From Phascolarctobacterium sp. (GTDB taxonomy: Bacteria > Bacillota > Negativicutes > Acidaminococcales > Acidaminococcaceae): DNA of 64,000 nucleotides. The notes below the pieces were generated by a model that saw only the letters and a list, made by a program, of their open reading frames with translations, did not search any database and was not told where the DNA came from. Where the stretch lies: NCBI GenBank assembly GCA_030531205.1, contig JAUNOC010000001.1, positions 124,001 to 188,000 of the forward strand, read 5' to 3'. A program made the translations under genes and the position numbers. Shown here piece by piece: positions 16,572 through 32,370 of the stretch; position 1 is the first letter of the stretch, and each line of letters starts with the position of its first letter.

Positions 16572-17492
16572 TCAACCCTTCCCGATTAAATCCCTTATCC
16601 CATCTTCAAATGAAATTTGTGGTTTCCAACCAGTATCAGCAGTCAAATTAGATATATCCGCTTCCAAATGCATAACTTGATTCGGATAATATGGTAATGT
16701 ACCAAAATTCAATTTAGCAGACGGATTAATAATATCACGGATTGCCGTAATATAATCTCTCAACAATCTTGTTTTCCCACTACCAAAACAATAAATCGCA
16801 CCAGAACGTCCTTTTTCTGCCACCAACCGAAAAGCCCGTGCAGCATCAGCTGAATAAATATAATCCCAAACCTGATCACCTTTAGTAAAATCAAGTTCCT
16901 TATCCCCATTCAATAATTTTTTTATTGTACTCATTACTAAAGTTTGCTCACTATCTCCTTTACCATACATACTTAAAATCCTGCACCACTCATGACGAAT
17001 GCCTAACTGTTGGCATAATATTCTGCTCAATGAACCCGCCGCTAATTTGGCAATACCATAGCCATTATCAGGGTTGCAAGGCATATCCGGATGTAAAACC
17101 CCATCAATATGTCCAAATTCACTCTGACTGCCTGCACCAATAAACACCTTACATCCTAACTCTTTCGCAAGATACACTGCATCCAAAGTATATTGAATAT
17201 TCTTTTGTTGCAAAACAATATCCTGCCTGCTATCACCATAAGTTCCATCCCATGCAAAATGAAAAAAATAATCATAGTCACGGCTTAACTTGTTCGTTAA
17301 TGTTTTTAAGGAACCAAGTTCGCACTCAACTACAGTTAATTCATCCCTTTGCAAAAGATTGCCCATCCTTTTAGAATGTGGTCTGCAAACGGCAGTAACT
17401 GCATAATTGTACTCCAATAATTCACTTATCAAAGCAGTCCCTACCGCACCGGTAGGTCCCGTTATAATTATTTTTTTTGTTCCCATAACCAT
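16572..17492 (-). CDS. NAD-dependent epimerase/dehydratase (extended SDR) of nucleotide-sugar type
   Basis: About 306 residues. The Rossmann motif GPTGAVG near the N-terminus, the substrate-site segment GAGSQSEFG and the catalytic YGIAK motif mark an extended SDR acting on a nucleotide-linked sugar. TGATG overlap with the cyclase gene upstream shows translational coupling. It is the last gene of the 16572-30401 polysaccharide run. The exact reaction (epimerase, dehydratase or 4-reductase) is not determined; a 4-keto reductase for the CDP-sugar made by rfbF and rfbG is plausible. Confidence 0.8.
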   Translation of the reverse strand: MVMGTKKIIITGPTGAVGTALISELLEYNYAVTAVCRPHSKRMGNLLQRDELTVVECELGSLKTLTNKLSRDYDYFFHFAWDGTYGDSRQDIVLQQKNIQYTLDAVYLAKELGCKVFIGAGSQSEFGHIDGVLHPDMPCNPDNGYGIAKLAAGSLSRILCQQLGIRHEWCRILSMYGKGDSEQTLVMSTIKKLLNGDKELDFTKGDQVWDYIYSADAARAFRLVAEKGRSGAIYCFGSGKTRLLRDYITAIRDIINPSAKLNFGTLPYYPNQVMHLEADISNLTADTGWKPQISFEDGIRDLIGKG

Positions 17493-21040: not shown

Positions 21041-22162
21041 TCAATGCCATATGCTTTTGCATAATATCCTATTTCTCAAAAACTTTTCCAAAAGAACAAA
21101 AAATTTTGCCAAAAGAAAAGTTATAATACCAACACATATTACACACTTGAAATACTGCTCCAAAGATGTTTCGCCCCCAATATATTTGCAAAGAACCAAT
21201 GCAACTGGAGAATGAAGCAAATAAAAATAAAAACCATATTGCTTTATTTTTGATATTACAAAAATGATATTTTTATTCCCCCGCCCAATAAAGTTTATGT
21301 CATTATATGTGGCTATTAGCAATGTAACAAAACCAACATATATGGTTGGAAACACATATTGATATAAAACAGCAAATTTCCACTGCACACATATGTTTAT
21401 AAGAATAAAAATAACAAAACCCCATGAAACAATTGTACGATATATTCCCAACCTACTTATATCCATTTTCACTACAATAAAGGAACTAATTATCCCAGCT
21501 ATAAACAAATCTGTATTACCTAAAACTGAGGAATAAACAAAACGACTCCACTCAATATTCAATACACACATCAAAATTCTTGTGAAAAGACCGCTCAATA
21601 ATACACACAGAAAAATCTTGTATAGTGAAACATGACTAATTATTTTATCCAAACAACGAACAAACAATGGGGAAAACACATATAACCACATCAATGTTGA
21701 AACAAACCAAACTGCACCTATAGCTGCAGGGTCAGGTTTTGCATAATAAGTACAAAAAACAAGTCTTCGTAAAAACACTATCGCCTCATAGGATGAAAAA
21801 AAGTTTGGATTTAAAGCCAAAGATACAAATAATACTACCACTAATGATGGTACATAAATTTTTCCAAATTTTACTTTATAGAATCTAAAAATCCCTGTCC
21901 ATGTAGCAAAATCATACTTCTTTGTAAGATATCCATATCCTACAAAATAACCTGACAAACAATAAAAAATCCAAGTCCCTGCCCATGCTGGTGTTTTTAG
22001 AAAAAACAAATAGGGATAATCTTTAAAAATCTGTGCTACCGCATAATCAGCCCCATCAAACAATGTGACATGCAACATAAAAACAAAAAACAATGCTAAT
22101 ACTCTAAGGATATCAAGAATATCAACACTAACAAATGTTGCTAATTTATTTTCCAAACTCAT
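21041..22162 (-). CDS. Acyltransferase-3 family membrane O-acyltransferase
   Basis: A 373-residue protein with about ten membrane helices. The N-terminal DILRVLALFFVFMLHVTLF contains the conserved Arg and His of the acyltransferase_3 (OafA/Oac) family, which adds acetyl or other acyl groups to surface sugars. It overlaps the end of the aldolase-fusion gene by 17 bases, so it is translated by coupling. Its acceptor is probably a sugar of the polysaccharide built by this operon. Confidence 0.85.
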   Translation of the reverse strand: MSLENKLATFVSVDILDILRVLALFFVFMLHVTLFDGADYAVAQIFKDYPYLFFLKTPAWAGTWIFYCLSGYFVGYGYLTKKYDFATWTGIFRFYKVKFGKIYVPSLVVVLFVSLALNPNFFSSYEAIVFLRRLVFCTYYAKPDPAAIGAVWFVSTLMWLYVFSPLFVRCLDKIISHVSLYKIFLCVLLSGLFTRILMCVLNIEWSRFVYSSVLGNTDLFIAGIISSFIVVKMDISRLGIYRTIVSWGFVIFILINICVQWKFAVLYQYVFPTIYVGFVTLLIATYNDINFIGRGNKNIIFVISKIKQYGFYFYLLHSPVALVLCKYIGGETSLEQYFKCVICVGIITFLLAKFFVLLEKFLRNRILCKSIWH

Positions 22163-23761: not shown

Positions 23762-24871
23762 TTACACAAAAAAATATTCATCCAATTTTTGTTCACACTT
23801 AAAATAAAAATTTGCCTTAGAAAAATATTTTTCATAAAAACAATTTCTAACCATATCTATGACACAACCAATACTGTATATAATTAATGCTGTTAATACT
23901 GCAAAACACAAACAACTTAAAAAATCCAATTTAACCCAATTGCTGGTGTGAAAAACTTGAGACCATATAACATATCTAAAGTATTCATGATCATGCAACA
24001 AAAGAACACCGAAAGATCCTATAGCCAATAAATTTATCCTACGAGAATAATGCACTTTCAAGCCAAGAAAAAAAGCGAACAATAACCCCCCCCCTAAAAT
24101 ACTTAACGGTCGTATTTCTGTTGCAAAAGCATAAGATAAAAACTTTTGAGCTAGCAAATTTGAATTAGTATAAGAGTAATATGCCAACACACTATACATA
24201 AACCAAAAACACAAAAAACCCCATATACCATTCCTGCAAATCTTTTCCAATAATTCCTTATCAACAAACGTCTTCACATAATAAACAACAAAATATACAA
24301 AGAAAAACACATACATTGTTGTTATCCAATCCACTCTAACTTGCAACCTACAAACCTTCATTACAACCGGTTCAATCCAGTAAATAGAACTTAATAATAA
24401 GATTATTGCAAGAATATTCTTTTGAGATAACTTACAAGTAATCTTACTAAAAAACGGAAATAATAGCATCCAACACAAATACATTTTAGCAAACCCATGT
24501 GAACATCCTAACAACGGTAAAAAACAACCAATTATATTGGCAAAACGAATATGTATTGCTCCATCATTAAGCCAAATTGCTAATGTCATGCCTAATAGAT
24601 TATAAAACAACACGCTAAACCATATATTCAAAAATTTTTTACCAGAAAAATTATTTCCAATAGTAAACCACATACTTGCAAATATAAATGCACAAAAAAT
24701 CATTTTCCCTAGTGGTAAAAAAATACATCCCAGAAACATGATTTCCAAATTATCATTTGCACTTAATAATCCACCATGACAGCCAATATGATGTAGTGTA
24801 AGACCAATCATCAAAATAACTCGCATTAATTCAATATTAGACTGTCTTTTTAATACACGATTTTCACTCAT
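23762..24871 (-). CDS. Acyltransferase-like polytopic membrane protein carrying a G9 tract
   Basis: A 369-residue protein with about ten membrane helices. The start SNIELMRVILMIGLTLHHIG carries the Arg and His expected of acyltransferase_3-type surface polysaccharide modifying enzymes. Codons 260-262 are three GGG codons forming a run of nine G (24094-24086, minus strand), in frame here. Loss of one G gives a TGA ten codons later and gain of one also ends the frame soon after, so the gene is a candidate for phase variation. It overlaps the rfbG gene by 8 bases. Confidence 0.82.
   Translation of the reverse strand: MSENRVLKRQSNIELMRVILMIGLTLHHIGCHGGLLSANDNLEIMFLGCIFLPLGKMIFCAFIFASMWFTIGNNFSGKKFLNIWFSVLFYNLLGMTLAIWLNDGAIHIRFANIIGCFLPLLGCSHGFAKMYLCWMLLFPFFSKITCKLSQKNILAIILLLSSIYWIEPVVMKVCRLQVRVDWITTMYVFFFVYFVVYYVKTFVDKELLEKICRNGIWGFLCFWFMYSVLAYYSYTNSNLLAQKFLSYAFATEIRPLSILGGGLLFAFFLGLKVHYSRRINLLAIGSFGVLLLHDHEYFRYVIWSQVFHTSNWVKLDFLSCLCFAVLTALIIYSIGCVIDMVRNCFYEKYFSKANFYFKCEQKLDEYFFV
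24086..24094 (-). repeat. G9 homopolymer tract inside an acyltransferase gene (in frame)
   Basis: Nine consecutive G on the coding strand within an AT-rich gene. Only two runs of eight or more G/C were noticed in the window, and both are in surface-modification genes. Confidence 0.9.
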
Positions 24872-26701: not shown

Positions 26702-27681
26702 AATTTAACACCTACAATTCTACATAATTTTCTTACAACCCTAAATCCGAACCAGTATATTTTTGCCAATGGCAACGGCCATGTTGCCATTGGAACTAAC
26801 AACCATTTATATTCAGGCAAATCGCCAAACTTGTCTTGCAAAACTTCTTGCGGTTTTTCCGCCACAAATGTATTGTTACAACTTCTCCCCAACATTATAT
26901 AATACGGGAAAAAATTTCTAGAAATATCATGCTTAATATAATTGATGGTCTTTAAATTCAAACCTTTAGAAATAAATTTTTCCAGTATATTAAATAAATT
27001 TTGCCCAAACACTTTAAAAACGGTATATCCTCCATTTTGATTGCCTGCAGAATATATAAGCGGTGTATTTATATATACATTTTGTGTGTGCATTAATGCA
27101 CTATTCACATAAAGGGGCACTTGAAAAAATTGAGAATAAAAATATTTAGTGAAATCAATATCACTATCTAAAACACACCGATTAAAAATGTTGCCAGACA
27201 TAAAGGTTATATAGTAACTAACCCGTTGCAAATAAACATTGCTGTCATTATAAACATAATGATTTAGTTTTTCTTCTTGTCCAATACTAAATGGATTCTT
27301 ATCTGCTCTATTGCCAGATTGCACATATATTGCTCCATAATCACTATTTTGTAATAAATTTAATAGAGCAAAAATTCCCCCGGGAATAATATAATCGTCA
27401 TCTCCCAAAAGCCAAATATATTTTCCCTGTGCATGCATAACACAAGAATAAAAATTTTTATCCGGTCCAAGATTTGTTTCATTAACAAGATACTTAAAAT
27501 TGTATCCTTGACTTTTGTATTGCTCAATAATCTGTACTGTTTCATCTGTAGATGCATTATTGGATATGATTAATTCAACAGCATCATCATTTTCCTGCAC
27601 TTGCGGCAAAAGATATTTTAAGTTTTCCTGTAAAAACTTTGCCCTATTATATGTTGGAATACAAATTGATAACAACTTCAT
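26698..27681 (-). CDS. Glycosyltransferase family 2
   Basis: A 327-residue GT-A enzyme: SICIPTYNRAKFLQENL at the N-terminus, ISNNASTDET and the metal-binding WLLGDDDYI. Its adjacency to rfbF/rfbG (4-base overlap) suggests it may transfer the CDP-derived sugar, as RfbV does for CDP-abequose, but that is inference. A C-terminal hydrophobic, basic stretch (WPLPLAKIYWFGFRVVRKLC) may associate with the membrane. Confidence 0.85.
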   Translation of the reverse strand: MKLLSICIPTYNRAKFLQENLKYLLPQVQENDDAVELIISNNASTDETVQIIEQYKSQGYNFKYLVNETNLGPDKNFYSCVMHAQGKYIWLLGDDDYIIPGGIFALLNLLQNSDYGAIYVQSGNRADKNPFSIGQEEKLNHYVYNDSNVYLQRVSYYITFMSGNIFNRCVLDSDIDFTKYFYSQFFQVPLYVNSALMHTQNVYINTPLIYSAGNQNGGYTVFKVFGQNLFNILEKFISKGLNLKTINYIKHDISRNFFPYYIMLGRSCNNTFVAEKPQEVLQDKFGDLPEYKWLLVPMATWPLPLAKIYWFGFRVVRKLCRIVGVKL

Positions 27682-28991
27682 TTTCTTTCTCCTATATCAA
27701 GCTTGTTTTGAATATAAAGTACCCATACAAAATATGGTATACCATACACAAAACTTGATAGAAATCCCACAAACAAATATTCCGCTGAGAAATGCGTGAC
27801 AACATAAAAAGTTGAGCATGCTATATAAACGCCACTCACAACAGACATCCACCAAAACGGCTCTATCTTATGTGCCCTGATGTATAAAGTAATTGCATTC
27901 ACTATATCCTGCAAAAACCAACATGCCAACAAAATTGCCATTGATGTGGGAACAACTAAACGCCGTAATAATGCTACCTTATCATAAAAAAGATAGTATA
28001 AAGCAAAAAATCCAATTGCAAAGATAAGATGTGCTCCTATTGTTTTACACGACATGCTTTTGAATAAGTTTTTGGCTTTAACCCAATCTCTTTGCTCAAC
28101 CAAGCCATTAAGAATTGGTAATCTGGCAGTCATAAAAATATTAGCAACAGATAACATGGCGGTACAAATGGCTACACTCAATCCAATTCGTCCTGCTTCT
28201 ACTGAACCATAATAACGAAATGCTAACGGCGTATAAATCATCATTGCAAAATAACCGCCACACCAACTAATTGCATAACGCCACATGAGCGAGAAAAACT
28301 CCTTGCTCCAACTGTACGTTTTACATTTTGACAACGACAATAACAATTTTATGTTTTTGCCAAATTCATGACAAACTATCCAACAACATACAATGGTAGA
28401 AAAACACATTGACATCGCCAAAGCATAAAGTTTTGCGCCCAAAAACAGCAAAATTATATTTGTCAAACTTGCAACAATACCAACCTTAAATCTTGTCAGT
28501 TGAGTTTTTGCAACATTATTACATCCTTCAAAAAAACTGAGTACCACATTAAAGATAAAATAAACTGACGAAAACACGGAATATATAATCCATGGTATTT
28601 GCCACGTTACCGTTAAATCCTTGTTTTCACTAATAAAGACAAAACCATAGACAACAATAATTGTAAATACAATACTGACCGTAAAGCTGACCCACTTCAT
28701 GCAAAAACGAAAGAAGTCGGCTAACTTGTGTAAATGAAATTCATCGCCATCTATTTTTTGATTTTCATCATAATGCAAGAAGGCAAATTCATGAGCGGCA
28801 AATTGTAAAACTATTGTAGTAAATCCAAGGTCTGCAAAAATAGATAATGCCGCTACACTTGTAAATGTATACCAATATCCTTGTTCCTCCGCTGACAAAA
28901 ACAAAGGAATACATATCAACATTAAAGGTCCTGAAATTAAACGATATAACTGATTTAAAGCAGTATGTGTAACATCTCTATCTAAACGCAT
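27678..28991 (-). CDS. Wzx-type polysaccharide flippase
   Basis: A 437-residue protein with about twelve predicted membrane helices and the MATE/MOP-like repeat layout of O-antigen flippases (ALNQLYRLISGPLMLICIPL at the start). It would move the undecaprenyl-linked repeat unit across the inner membrane. It overlaps the following glycosyltransferase gene by four bases. Its ribosome binding site, GGGAGAAA, comes from a 34-bp sequence that also occurs at the end of the hexapeptide transferase gene. Confidence 0.82.
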   Translation of the reverse strand: MRLDRDVTHTALNQLYRLISGPLMLICIPLFLSAEEQGYWYTFTSVAALSIFADLGFTTIVLQFAAHEFAFLHYDENQKIDGDEFHLHKLADFFRFCMKWVSFTVSIVFTIIVVYGFVFISENKDLTVTWQIPWIIYSVFSSVYFIFNVVLSFFEGCNNVAKTQLTRFKVGIVASLTNIILLFLGAKLYALAMSMCFSTIVCCWIVCHEFGKNIKLLLSLSKCKTYSWSKEFFSLMWRYAISWCGGYFAMMIYTPLAFRYYGSVEAGRIGLSVAICTAMLSVANIFMTARLPILNGLVEQRDWVKAKNLFKSMSCKTIGAHLIFAIGFFALYYLFYDKVALLRRLVVPTSMAILLACWFLQDIVNAITLYIRAHKIEPFWWMSVVSGVYIACSTFYVVTHFSAEYLFVGFLSSFVYGIPYFVWVLYIQNKLDIGERK

Positions 28992-29002
28992 TACTTATTT
29001 AT

Positions 29003-29036
29003 TTTCTCCCATTTCCCGTCTTGCCAAACTTTAACC
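29003..29036 (+). repeat. 34-bp direct repeat, copy 1
   Basis: Identical to 29772-29805. It begins two bases after the SGNH stop and, read on the minus strand, would encode the final residues VKVWQDGKWEK of the hexapeptide transferase followed by INK and a stop. It looks like the original 3' end of that gene. Confidence 0.9.
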
Positions 29037-29038
29037 GA

Positions 29039-29766
29039 TTAGCGTATTAGTGCAAAAATTCTCTCCGCAACTATCTGCATTGCTTTGTCATCCGGATGAT
29101 TGGCAACTCCTATATGTTCTATAATATGTGTCATTCCATCATCACCTTTAACTTCCGTACCAAGTCCGGCATAATATTGTTTATCTTGTAAGTCCCTTAA
29201 ATCAATATATGCTACTTGTTTCCCATCACAAATATTTTGTTTTATCATTTCAATCTTCTTATTATTCCAAAAATTACCAATCACAATAACTCTTGCATCA
29301 TTCAACTTTAATTGAATATGCTTAATCAAATCACGAAAATCCTGTTCCAATGTATCTGTATTAGATATATTTTCACCTAATTGCAAAACTACCAAATCAT
29401 ATTTTCTCGCCAAATATGGCTCTATAAGATTATATGTTTCTGCCCTATCGTTATGCATTATTTCCCATTGATAATAGTTCATCACATCCGTTTTGCATTT
29501 TGATATATTCTCAAATATATGCACATAATCTTTTGATTTTTCACTGGCAGCCATCCCCCATTCTCCCCACCAGTAACTGCATTTTCCATGTAATGTAATA
29601 CTATTGCCCAAAACAAGTACATTTTTTATGGGATGGGATAATTCTAAGTGTTGCAGTGATTTAATCTTTTTGTTATCACTACTACAACCTGTTAGCCCCC
29701 CCCAATAGACAAAAGTACAACGAGGATCAACAAAATTTTGCCAAAATATTTAATTATATTTTTCAT
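29039..29766 (-). CDS. SGNH-type hydrolase lipoprotein, frame broken at a G8 tract (probably phase-off)
   Basis: Translation from the ATG at 29766 gives the signal MKNIIKYFGKILLILVVLL and then meets eight G (29703-29696) and a TAA at 29694. With nine or six G the frame continues through the lipobox LTGC and SSDNKKIK into an intact hydrolase domain that is open from the tract to the stop at 29039. That domain has the SGNH block I motif LGNSIT, a block III-like QLGEN and the block V motif HPDD. The ON product would be a lipoprotein of about 242 residues acting outside the inner membrane, perhaps as an O-acyl esterase or transferase on surface sugars. The start overlaps the transferase stop (ATGA). 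A true pseudogene or a read error in the tract are alternatives. Confidence 0.75.
29696..29703 (-). repeat. G8 homopolymer tract at the signal-peptide end of the SGNH lipoprotein gene (out of frame)
   Basis: Eight G on the coding strand just before the lipobox. Eight gives an immediate stop; nine or six restores the frame. Confidence 0.9.
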
Positions 29767-30401
29767 TTCACTTTCTCCCATTTCCCGTCTTGCCAAACTT
29801 TAACCACCTTTGCCGGAGTGCCAACAGCAATAGTGTTTTCAGGAATAGTACCAATCACCACAGAATTAGCACCGATAATTGCATTGTCACCAATATGCGA
29901 ACCGGGAAGGATAGACACATTCTCCCCCACCCACACATTTTTACCAAGTATAACTTCTTCGCATCCCAAATCACGCTCGCCAACAATATCATTTGCATCG
30001 CTCTGCTTGTCCCCACGATACCAACCATGATTGTGGTCTGTAAGATATACATTGCTACCAAAAAGACAGTTATCGCCAATTTCCACATACTTGGCACAGC
30101 CAATATGATTTTTGAATGACAAACTGACATTATTGCCAATCTTCAACAAGGCATTAGTCGGTTGACCGTTATACTCTGAAACAACTTCCAGCCAGTTATA
30201 TCGACCCATTGCTAAACTACCGATTTGCATATATTTCAAACCGCTAATAAAGCAACTGCTGTCCGCCTGAATATGATACCTGCTCAGGAACAGCCAATTA
30301 TATATTTTATTTGCAACTATCCGCCACACTTGCAACAATCCCAATGGTCCATTCAATGACCATTGCCTGCCCAAAGCACGGAAAAATTTTATTACCAACA
30401 T
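29763..30401 (-). CDS. Left-handed beta-helix (hexapeptide) acyltransferase
   Basis: A 212-residue protein with tandem hexapeptide repeats (IGNNVSLSFKNHIG, IGDNCLFGSNVYL, LGKNVWVGENVSI, IGDNAIIGANSVVIG) and the end IPENTIAVGTPAKVVKVW typical of WbbJ/CatB-like O- or N-acetyltransferases. A His in TDHNHGW is a likely catalytic base. It is the first gene of the operon that runs to 16572 and follows the promoter at 30431. It could acetylate a 4-amino sugar or a hydroxyl of the repeat unit. Confidence 0.88.
   Translation of the reverse strand: MLVIKFFRALGRQWSLNGPLGLLQVWRIVANKIYNWLFLSRYHIQADSSCFISGLKYMQIGSLAMGRYNWLEVVSEYNGQPTNALLKIGNNVSLSFKNHIGCAKYVEIGDNCLFGSNVYLTDHNHGWYRGDKQSDANDIVGERDLGCEEVILGKNVWVGENVSILPGSHIGDNAIIGANSVVIGTIPENTIAVGTPAKVVKVWQDGKWEKVK
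29772..29805 (+). repeat. 34-bp direct repeat, copy 2
   Basis: Identical to 29003-29036; here it is the 3' end of the hexapeptide transferase coding sequence. The two copies bracket the SGNH gene exactly. Confidence 0.9.
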
Positions 30402-30430
30402 TTTATTTTATCTCTAATAATACATTGTAT

Positions 30431-30477: not shown

Positions 30478-30620
30478 TAAGAATTCAAAATGCAGAATTA
30501 AGAATGATAGTTAAAAGATAAAAGAGATAAGAGAAAAGATATGGTAAAATGTTCTGTTAACTATATTTCAGGTATTAGGTGTCAGGTGTCAGGTTACAGG
30601 GAAGTTTGGCATAGTGCGAA
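30478..30620. repeat. Heptad-type repeat block, left arm
   Basis: Sequence with 7-base periodicity (units such as AATTAAG, GATAAAA, GTGTCAG) and the motif ATGGTAAAATGTTC at 30541. Positions 30549-30620 are an imperfect inverted copy of 31964-32032, so the ATPase gene is bracketed by inverted arms. Confidence 0.7.
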
Positions 30621-31963: not shown

Positions 31964-32370
31964 TTCGCACTATGCCCCTTCCCTGAAACCTGACACCTAA
32001 CACCTGATACCTAATTATAATCACAGGAACATCAAAAAAAAATTAAAAGTTAAAAACTTAAAGCTTAAAACTATGGTAAAATGTTCCGTTGATTATATAT
32101 AACCCCTCAGTCGGCTTCGCCGCCAGCCCCCCTAACTGGGAGCAAAAAGTCCGCCTTCATCTAACTTTCCTGAAACCTAAAATATAATCACAGGAACATA
32201 CTACCATCATTTCTAATTTCTAATTTCACATTTCTAATTTCAATCCCCGGAACATATTACCATATTTGGTCTTTGCTCTTTGGTTATTTGTTCATTTATT
32301 TTTCAGAACACCCTACATTCATTCTTAATTCTTAACTAAATCCTAACCCCTAAGCTCTGACCACTAACTA
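31964..32370. repeat. Heptad-type repeat block, right arm and extension
   Basis: The gap 31872-32370 holds no gene. From 31964 it has successive runs of 7-base units (TGACACC/TAACACC; TTTCTAA; CCTAACC) separated by AATCACAGGAACAT-like motifs at 32019, 32186 and 32249 and the inverted form at 32073. 31964-32032 pairs with 30549-30620. A GC-rich palindromic insert (CAGTCGGCTTCGCCG) lies at 32103-32143. Confidence 0.7.

Follow-up and report, generated by a model that had tools for sequence, protein, structure and literature searches.

A G8 tract before the lipobox of a stand-alone SGNH lipoprotein gene in Phascolarctobacterium: a probable phase-variable switch in a surface polysaccharide locus

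The window, a stretch of 64,000 nucleotides from the genome of a Phascolarctobacterium sp., contains a surface polysaccharide locus (positions 16575–59146) with some non-glycan genes inside. The locus comprises dTDP-rhamnose genes, a CDP-glucose 4,6-dehydratase, a cytidylyltransferase, glycosyltransferases including WbsX, a sugar transferase, an aminotransferase and a PF01757 acyltransferase (21044–22162). On its minus strand lies a gene for an SGNH hydrolase-like protein. The gene directly upstream encodes a hexapeptide-repeat acetyltransferase (PF00132; 29763–30401, minus strand) and overlaps the SGNH start, and the next gene downstream (27678–28991, minus strand) encodes a 437-residue multi-spanning protein that has no Pfam hit and is flippase-like by position and composition. 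Elsewhere in the locus, short direct and inverted repeats (CTTCCCTGAAACCTGACACC... and AATTATAATCACAGGAACAT) lie at 30511–30604 and 31970–32353 around an AAA/DUF4143 gene, and a similar repeat occurs in a second genome of the same genus, G001 (L071 2966–3025).

The SGNH gene is bracketed by an exact 34-bp direct repeat that has only two copies in the genome. Copy 1 (29772–29805, minus strand) is the 3′ tail of the acetyltransferase gene, encoding VVKVWQDGKWEKVK and the stop, and copy 2 (29003–29036, minus strand) follows right after the SGNH stop, before the flippase-like gene. Each copy supplies a GGGAG ribosome-binding site to the gene behind it, that of copy 1 serving the SGNH start. Because the flanking repeat is the acetyltransferase 3′ end, the SGNH gene looks like a module inserted behind the acetyltransferase, and recombination between the two copies would cleanly delete it. 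G001 retains a remnant of this acetyltransferase gene's 5′ end (L071 1714–1757 against window 30361–30404, 84% over 44 bp), located before an acyltransferase gene split at a G8 run. Exchange of glycan genes seems to recur at the acetyltransferase gene.

Translation of the SGNH gene begins at ATG 29766 on the minus strand, with the GGGAG site eight nucleotides upstream. The frame from this ATG (29691–29766, minus strand) encodes a lipoprotein signal peptide, MKNIIKYFGKILLILVVLLSIGGG, and closes at a TAA immediately past a run of eight G (29696–29703, minus strand; C8 on the plus strand). This run lies 63–71 nt after the ATG and is the sole long G/C run within the gene, and the frame breaks exactly there. 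The rest of the gene (29039–29695, minus strand) lies in a frame one base away, which reads GGLTGCSSDNKK (GGLTGC/SSDNKK...) and stays open for 236 codons, through an LTGC lipobox and an intact SGNH hydrolase domain (CSSDNKK...ALIR), to a stop at 29039–29041. A sequence-only reading had described a stop in the signal-peptide region with lipobox and hydrolase domain intact in the next frame, and had claimed that nine or six G would restore the gene and that no other stop follows the break. Translation bears out this anatomy and its coordinates: a tract change of +1 or −2 joins the two frames, and the domain frame runs on to 29039 without further stops.

Across both frames, the product shows the charged n-region, the hydrophobic h-region of MKNIIKYFGKILLILVVLLSIGGG and the lipobox LTGC (pattern [LVI][ASTVI][GAS]C) of a bacterial lipoprotein, lipidation being predicted from the motif. 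The sole reported candidate internal start, TTG 29611, falls inside the first core strand of the SGNH domain, so the present allele should yield only a 24-residue peptide. As is typical of contingency genes, a G/C homopolymer of at least 7 nt (G8, nt 63–71) is located in frame near the 5′ end, and its length sets whether the product is truncated (24 residues, in the present frame) or a full-length lipoprotein.

Searches of Pfam, NCBIfam and PDB sequences gave no firm family for the protein; PF13472 (GDSL) was matched in Pfam only below threshold (E 0.003, 18.7 bits against a cut-off of 32.9). Fold comparison was therefore used. A structure model built from an alignment of 13 homologs reached a pLDDT of 87 and a pTM of 0.85 for the SGNH domain, and Foldseek placed it nearest, among solved folds, to CE2 carbohydrate esterases, TesA and the phage G7C tail esterase gp63.1; the nearest viral model was an SGNH protein of a Lactococcus phage. 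Although the CE2 esterases and gp63.1 (PDB 2wao, 4qnl) are the closest folds, their sequence identity to the window protein is just 12–16%. Three blocks are invariant in the alignment (G27 N28 S29, GNS; G104 E105 N106, GEN; H197 P198, HP). The window copy keeps all 13 residues that are invariant across the other 12 homologs, and the catalytic Ser, Gly, Asn and His are intact. Modelled fold and motifs together assign the protein to the SGNH hydrolase superfamily.

The relatives of this protein occur in varied contexts. A Dysgonomonas homolog is likewise a lipoprotein, a Lachnospiraceae relative carries an N-terminal membrane anchor and adjoins an acyltransferase, an Anaerovibrio relative is fused to a hexapeptide acetyltransferase, and relatives in two genomes of the Anaerovibrio JC8 genus are fused to CDP-glucose 4,6-dehydratase. 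In two phage relatives (L027 and L028), the SGNH domain is C-terminal in proteins encoded just before, or among, tail and lysis genes; in L027, holin-, Rz- and lysozyme-like genes come after the SGNH-bearing tail-region protein. These phage proteins are possibly receptor-stripping tail esterases of the same family as the host surface enzyme. Each of these contexts suggests that the substrate is a bacterial surface glycan. The window protein is most likely an O-acyl esterase or transferase that would remove or transfer acyl groups on such a glycan. It is a stand-alone protein with no fusion to an acyltransferase-3 (AT3) membrane domain, and does not qualify as an AT3-SGNH O-acyltransferase.

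We then considered how unusual the tract is. The length of the poly-G run had been put forward as a contingency signal in its own right, and this proved a weak argument: the window holds 5 overlapping 7-mers of G or C, not above the mean of 5.7 in dinucleotide shuffles. Run length alone was rejected as a criterion, as dinucleotide composition already predicts it. For runs of at least 8, a first-order Markov model of the window expects about 1.1 C-runs and 0.04 G-runs, and 2 C-runs are seen. The spectrum of C-run lengths (134 of length 4, 25 of length 5, 2 of length 6, none of length 7 and one each of lengths 8 and 9) suggests an excess at lengths 8–9. Pattern searches of the whole 1.33-Mb genome found only 8 G/C runs of at least 8, five of them outside recognisable genes and three in genes with a recognisable product (hisS, the acyltransferase-like gene described below and the SGNH gene). 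The G9 of hisS is in frame within the LGGGRYDGL motif of an essential gene (G000:C10, L006 2276–2284); given this run and the five outside recognisable genes, not every long run is a switch. With length not significant, the case therefore rests on the position of the tract and on comparison.

The comparison begins with the SGNH family itself, which is encoded in 11 of 380 genomes of the class Negativicutes and, within the taxonomic family of the window genome, in that genome only. No close orthologs were found in the genus or family, and none in plasmids. Three of the 11 homologs, all in one genus within the family of Anaerovibrio (here g52), carry coding-strand C-runs of differing length, C8 (G155), C9 (G196) and C16 (G162), within a short N-terminal stretch of variable sequence that directly precedes the GNSI core; the G8 of the window lies 87 nt before its SGNH core. 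The C8 and C9 runs are in frame behind a good ribosome-binding site and the C16 run is in frame from a GTG. Recurrence of tract position at differing lengths is a further mark of a contingency gene. Across the 11 loci, 0.019 tract coincidences are expected (P about 9e-5 with the three g52 loci counted once), an estimate that uses generous run densities and a 150-bp stretch picked after the data were seen. The family members that carry no tract are the fused and distant ones. Because the base differs, G in the window and C in g52, tract control probably arose twice.

Tracts of this kind also split other genes in g52 and in the genus of the window. In G162, 11 of the 24 runs sit where one long open frame gives way to another on the same strand; for randomly chosen positions in these loci the share is 3.9% (binomial 5e-10). 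The run counts for G162 and G196 are upper bounds that include overlapping matches. The corresponding figures for G155 are 5 of 21 runs and 8.1% of control positions. Genes bearing runs in g52 include glycosyltransferases, FdtA, an FkbM methyltransferase, acetyltransferases, an aminotransferase, an IspD-like cytidylyltransferase and a TupA-like ATP-grasp protein, and g52 apparently has a large phasome. Dozens of long poly-G/C runs splitting glycan genes are seen in this genus (L086–L105 in G162, L106–L124 in G155).

Closer to the window, G001 holds four runs, all within genes. Its AT3 gene (PF01757) is split exactly at G8, a split read by eye that the automatic test missed, the overlapping frame exceeding the test window. 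A phage-type DNA methyltransferase is split exactly at G11 (G001:C95, L068 144–154) and is possibly a phase-variable methyltransferase in a prophage of this genus; the remaining runs are a G8 at the C terminus of a GNAT gene and an in-frame run in a cytosine methyltransferase. These gene types are classic phase-variable categories. In a further genome, G002 (G+C about 53%), the tracts sit in frame within housekeeping genes, and we gave them no weight.

The window itself contains a second long tract, a G9 (24086–24094, minus strand; C9 on the plus strand) located 5.6 kb from the G8, a spacing that is not significant by itself (P about 0.21). It is in frame in a gene for a 369-residue AT3-like membrane protein with no Pfam hit (23762–24871, minus strand). 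Homologs of this protein (21–31% identical) have neither the Gly triplet nor the run. From its sequence, the G9 is a candidate second switch, which would be ON in this assembly.

These observations bear on whether the SGNH gene is instead an early pseudogene, a repeat-flanked module that was recently acquired and then fixed a single homopolymer indel, with no programmed switching. The gene is absent from the rest of the taxonomic family, and the 34-bp direct repeats mark it as young and deletable. MutS and MutL are present and intact, which favors a fixed frameshift; every genome checked likewise has intact mismatch repair genes, and the idea that the long runs stem from lost mismatch repair was rejected. 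In addition, the G270 homolog is broken at a run of only C6, which shows that ordinary homopolymer indels do strike the SGNH family. Against this, the window gene has one lesion only and keeps all conserved residues, homologs elsewhere are ON with long tracts at the matching position, and other surface genes of the genus are likewise broken exactly at tracts. We consider a fixed frameshift unlikely. The earlier claim that the gene is maintained and switched rather than decayed finds support in the 13 of 13 conserved residues, the C8, C9 and C16 homologs and the same-genus splits at G8 and G11, with the switching itself inferred.

An assembly or sequencing error, in which the true majority tract has another length and the SGNH gene is intact, appears more doubtful still. 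Homopolymers are the commonest place for consensus indels, and the genome is in 15 contigs, but the G9 runs in hisS and the acyltransferase-like gene, longer than G8, are both in frame. That the other long open reading frames of the window are unbroken shows that frameshifts are not general in this assembly, and even if such an error were real the tract would stay a candidate switch. Ribosomal or transcriptional slippage on the G run is the most improbable of these explanations, with very little weight in our estimate; under it, programmed frameshifting, and no switching of the DNA, would yield some full-length protein from the G8 allele. In the sequence, GGGGGGGC immediately precedes the UAA, and a −1 slip there would lead into the SGNH frame. 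The downstream RNA structure, however, is not unusually stable (z = −1.18), and the homolog tracts vary freely in length and base (G or C), several being simply in frame, a pattern that suits slippage at the DNA level better than a conserved slippery heptamer.

We favor slipped-strand phase variation of the SGNH lipoprotein gene, OFF in the sequenced consensus, with a probability of about 0.75. Since distant relatives and other surface-sugar genes of the genus carry such runs, the gene is most likely a random on/off switch. In the proposed mechanism, the G8 would gain or lose bases by slipped-strand mispairing during replication, turning translation of the lipoprotein ON or OFF cell by cell. 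After export in the ON state, the protein would carry a lipid on the LTGC cysteine and stay anchored in the cell envelope, where the SGNH domain may remove O-acyl groups from the surface polysaccharide of the same locus, or accept them and pass them on. As the run is translated into glycines that separate the hydrophobic core from the lipobox, gains or losses in multiples of three would only alter the number of glycines before the lipobox and should be tolerated without harm. In the OFF state, about 650 nt of untranslated transcript would precede the flippase-like gene, and some polarity on downstream genes may follow. The rate of switching may be modest, because eight G is short for a tract that switches efficiently, and both MutS and MutL are present and intact. 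For the window species, we infer length switching, export and substrate alike.

The mechanism is already known from Campylobacter and Neisseria contingency loci. Phase-variable lipoproteins of Neisseria and Mycoplasma have a homopolymer tract near the gene start, as does the window gene, although they belong to other protein families and the window tract lies directly before the lipobox. The Campylobacter phasome was defined with a run cut-off of at least 7; all runs of at least 8 in NCTC 11168 were reported variable, and most lie in surface-structure genes (PMC6321876). The window gene resembles the poly-G/C surface-glycan genes of Campylobacter in its intragenic G/C run and translational ON/OFF logic (PMC6321876), but its genome is of a different phylum, has 8 long runs only and retains mismatch repair, and its variation is a prediction. 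Phase-variable O-acylation is known for AT3 proteins such as H. influenzae oafA (PMC9558356). The parallel with oafA is the proposed phase-variable O-acylation of a surface glycan; the switching gene of H. influenzae encodes an AT3 acyltransferase, whereas the window gene encodes a stand-alone SGNH lipoprotein with an in-frame G9 AT3-like gene nearby. Like the stand-alone PatB and Ape and the SGNH domains of AT3-SGNH proteins (PMC9558356), the window domain would be extracytoplasmic and is encoded next to membrane acyltransferase genes, and by this analogy it could be a final acyl acceptor or donor or an O-acetylesterase. In contrast to these proteins, its sequence falls below the Pfam cut-off, and it has a lipoprotein anchor and no known partner.

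No report of tract-based phase variation in Negativicutes was found in the open-access literature. What appears to be new is the taxon, the choice of a stand-alone SGNH lipoprotein as target, and what looks like parallel recruitment of tracts within a single enzyme family. More tentatively, and at somewhat less than even odds, a poly-G/C phasome of Negativicutes may mainly switch surface-glycan modification, with one SGNH esterase family placed under tract control independently in two families, through a G-run in a lipoprotein signal peptide here and a C-run in a cytoplasmic-type N-terminus in g52; the acyltransferase-like and SGNH tracts of the window would then give combinatorial acylation states. 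The best-known cases of random surface-sugar switching come from a small number of pathogens with an outer membrane. Negativicutes are common gut bacteria that have an outer membrane though they lie within a Gram-positive phylum. If the proposed switching is true, the coat would differ within clonal populations of such commensals, with probable consequences for phage sensitivity and immune visibility, and genes that look broken in these genomes may be switches.
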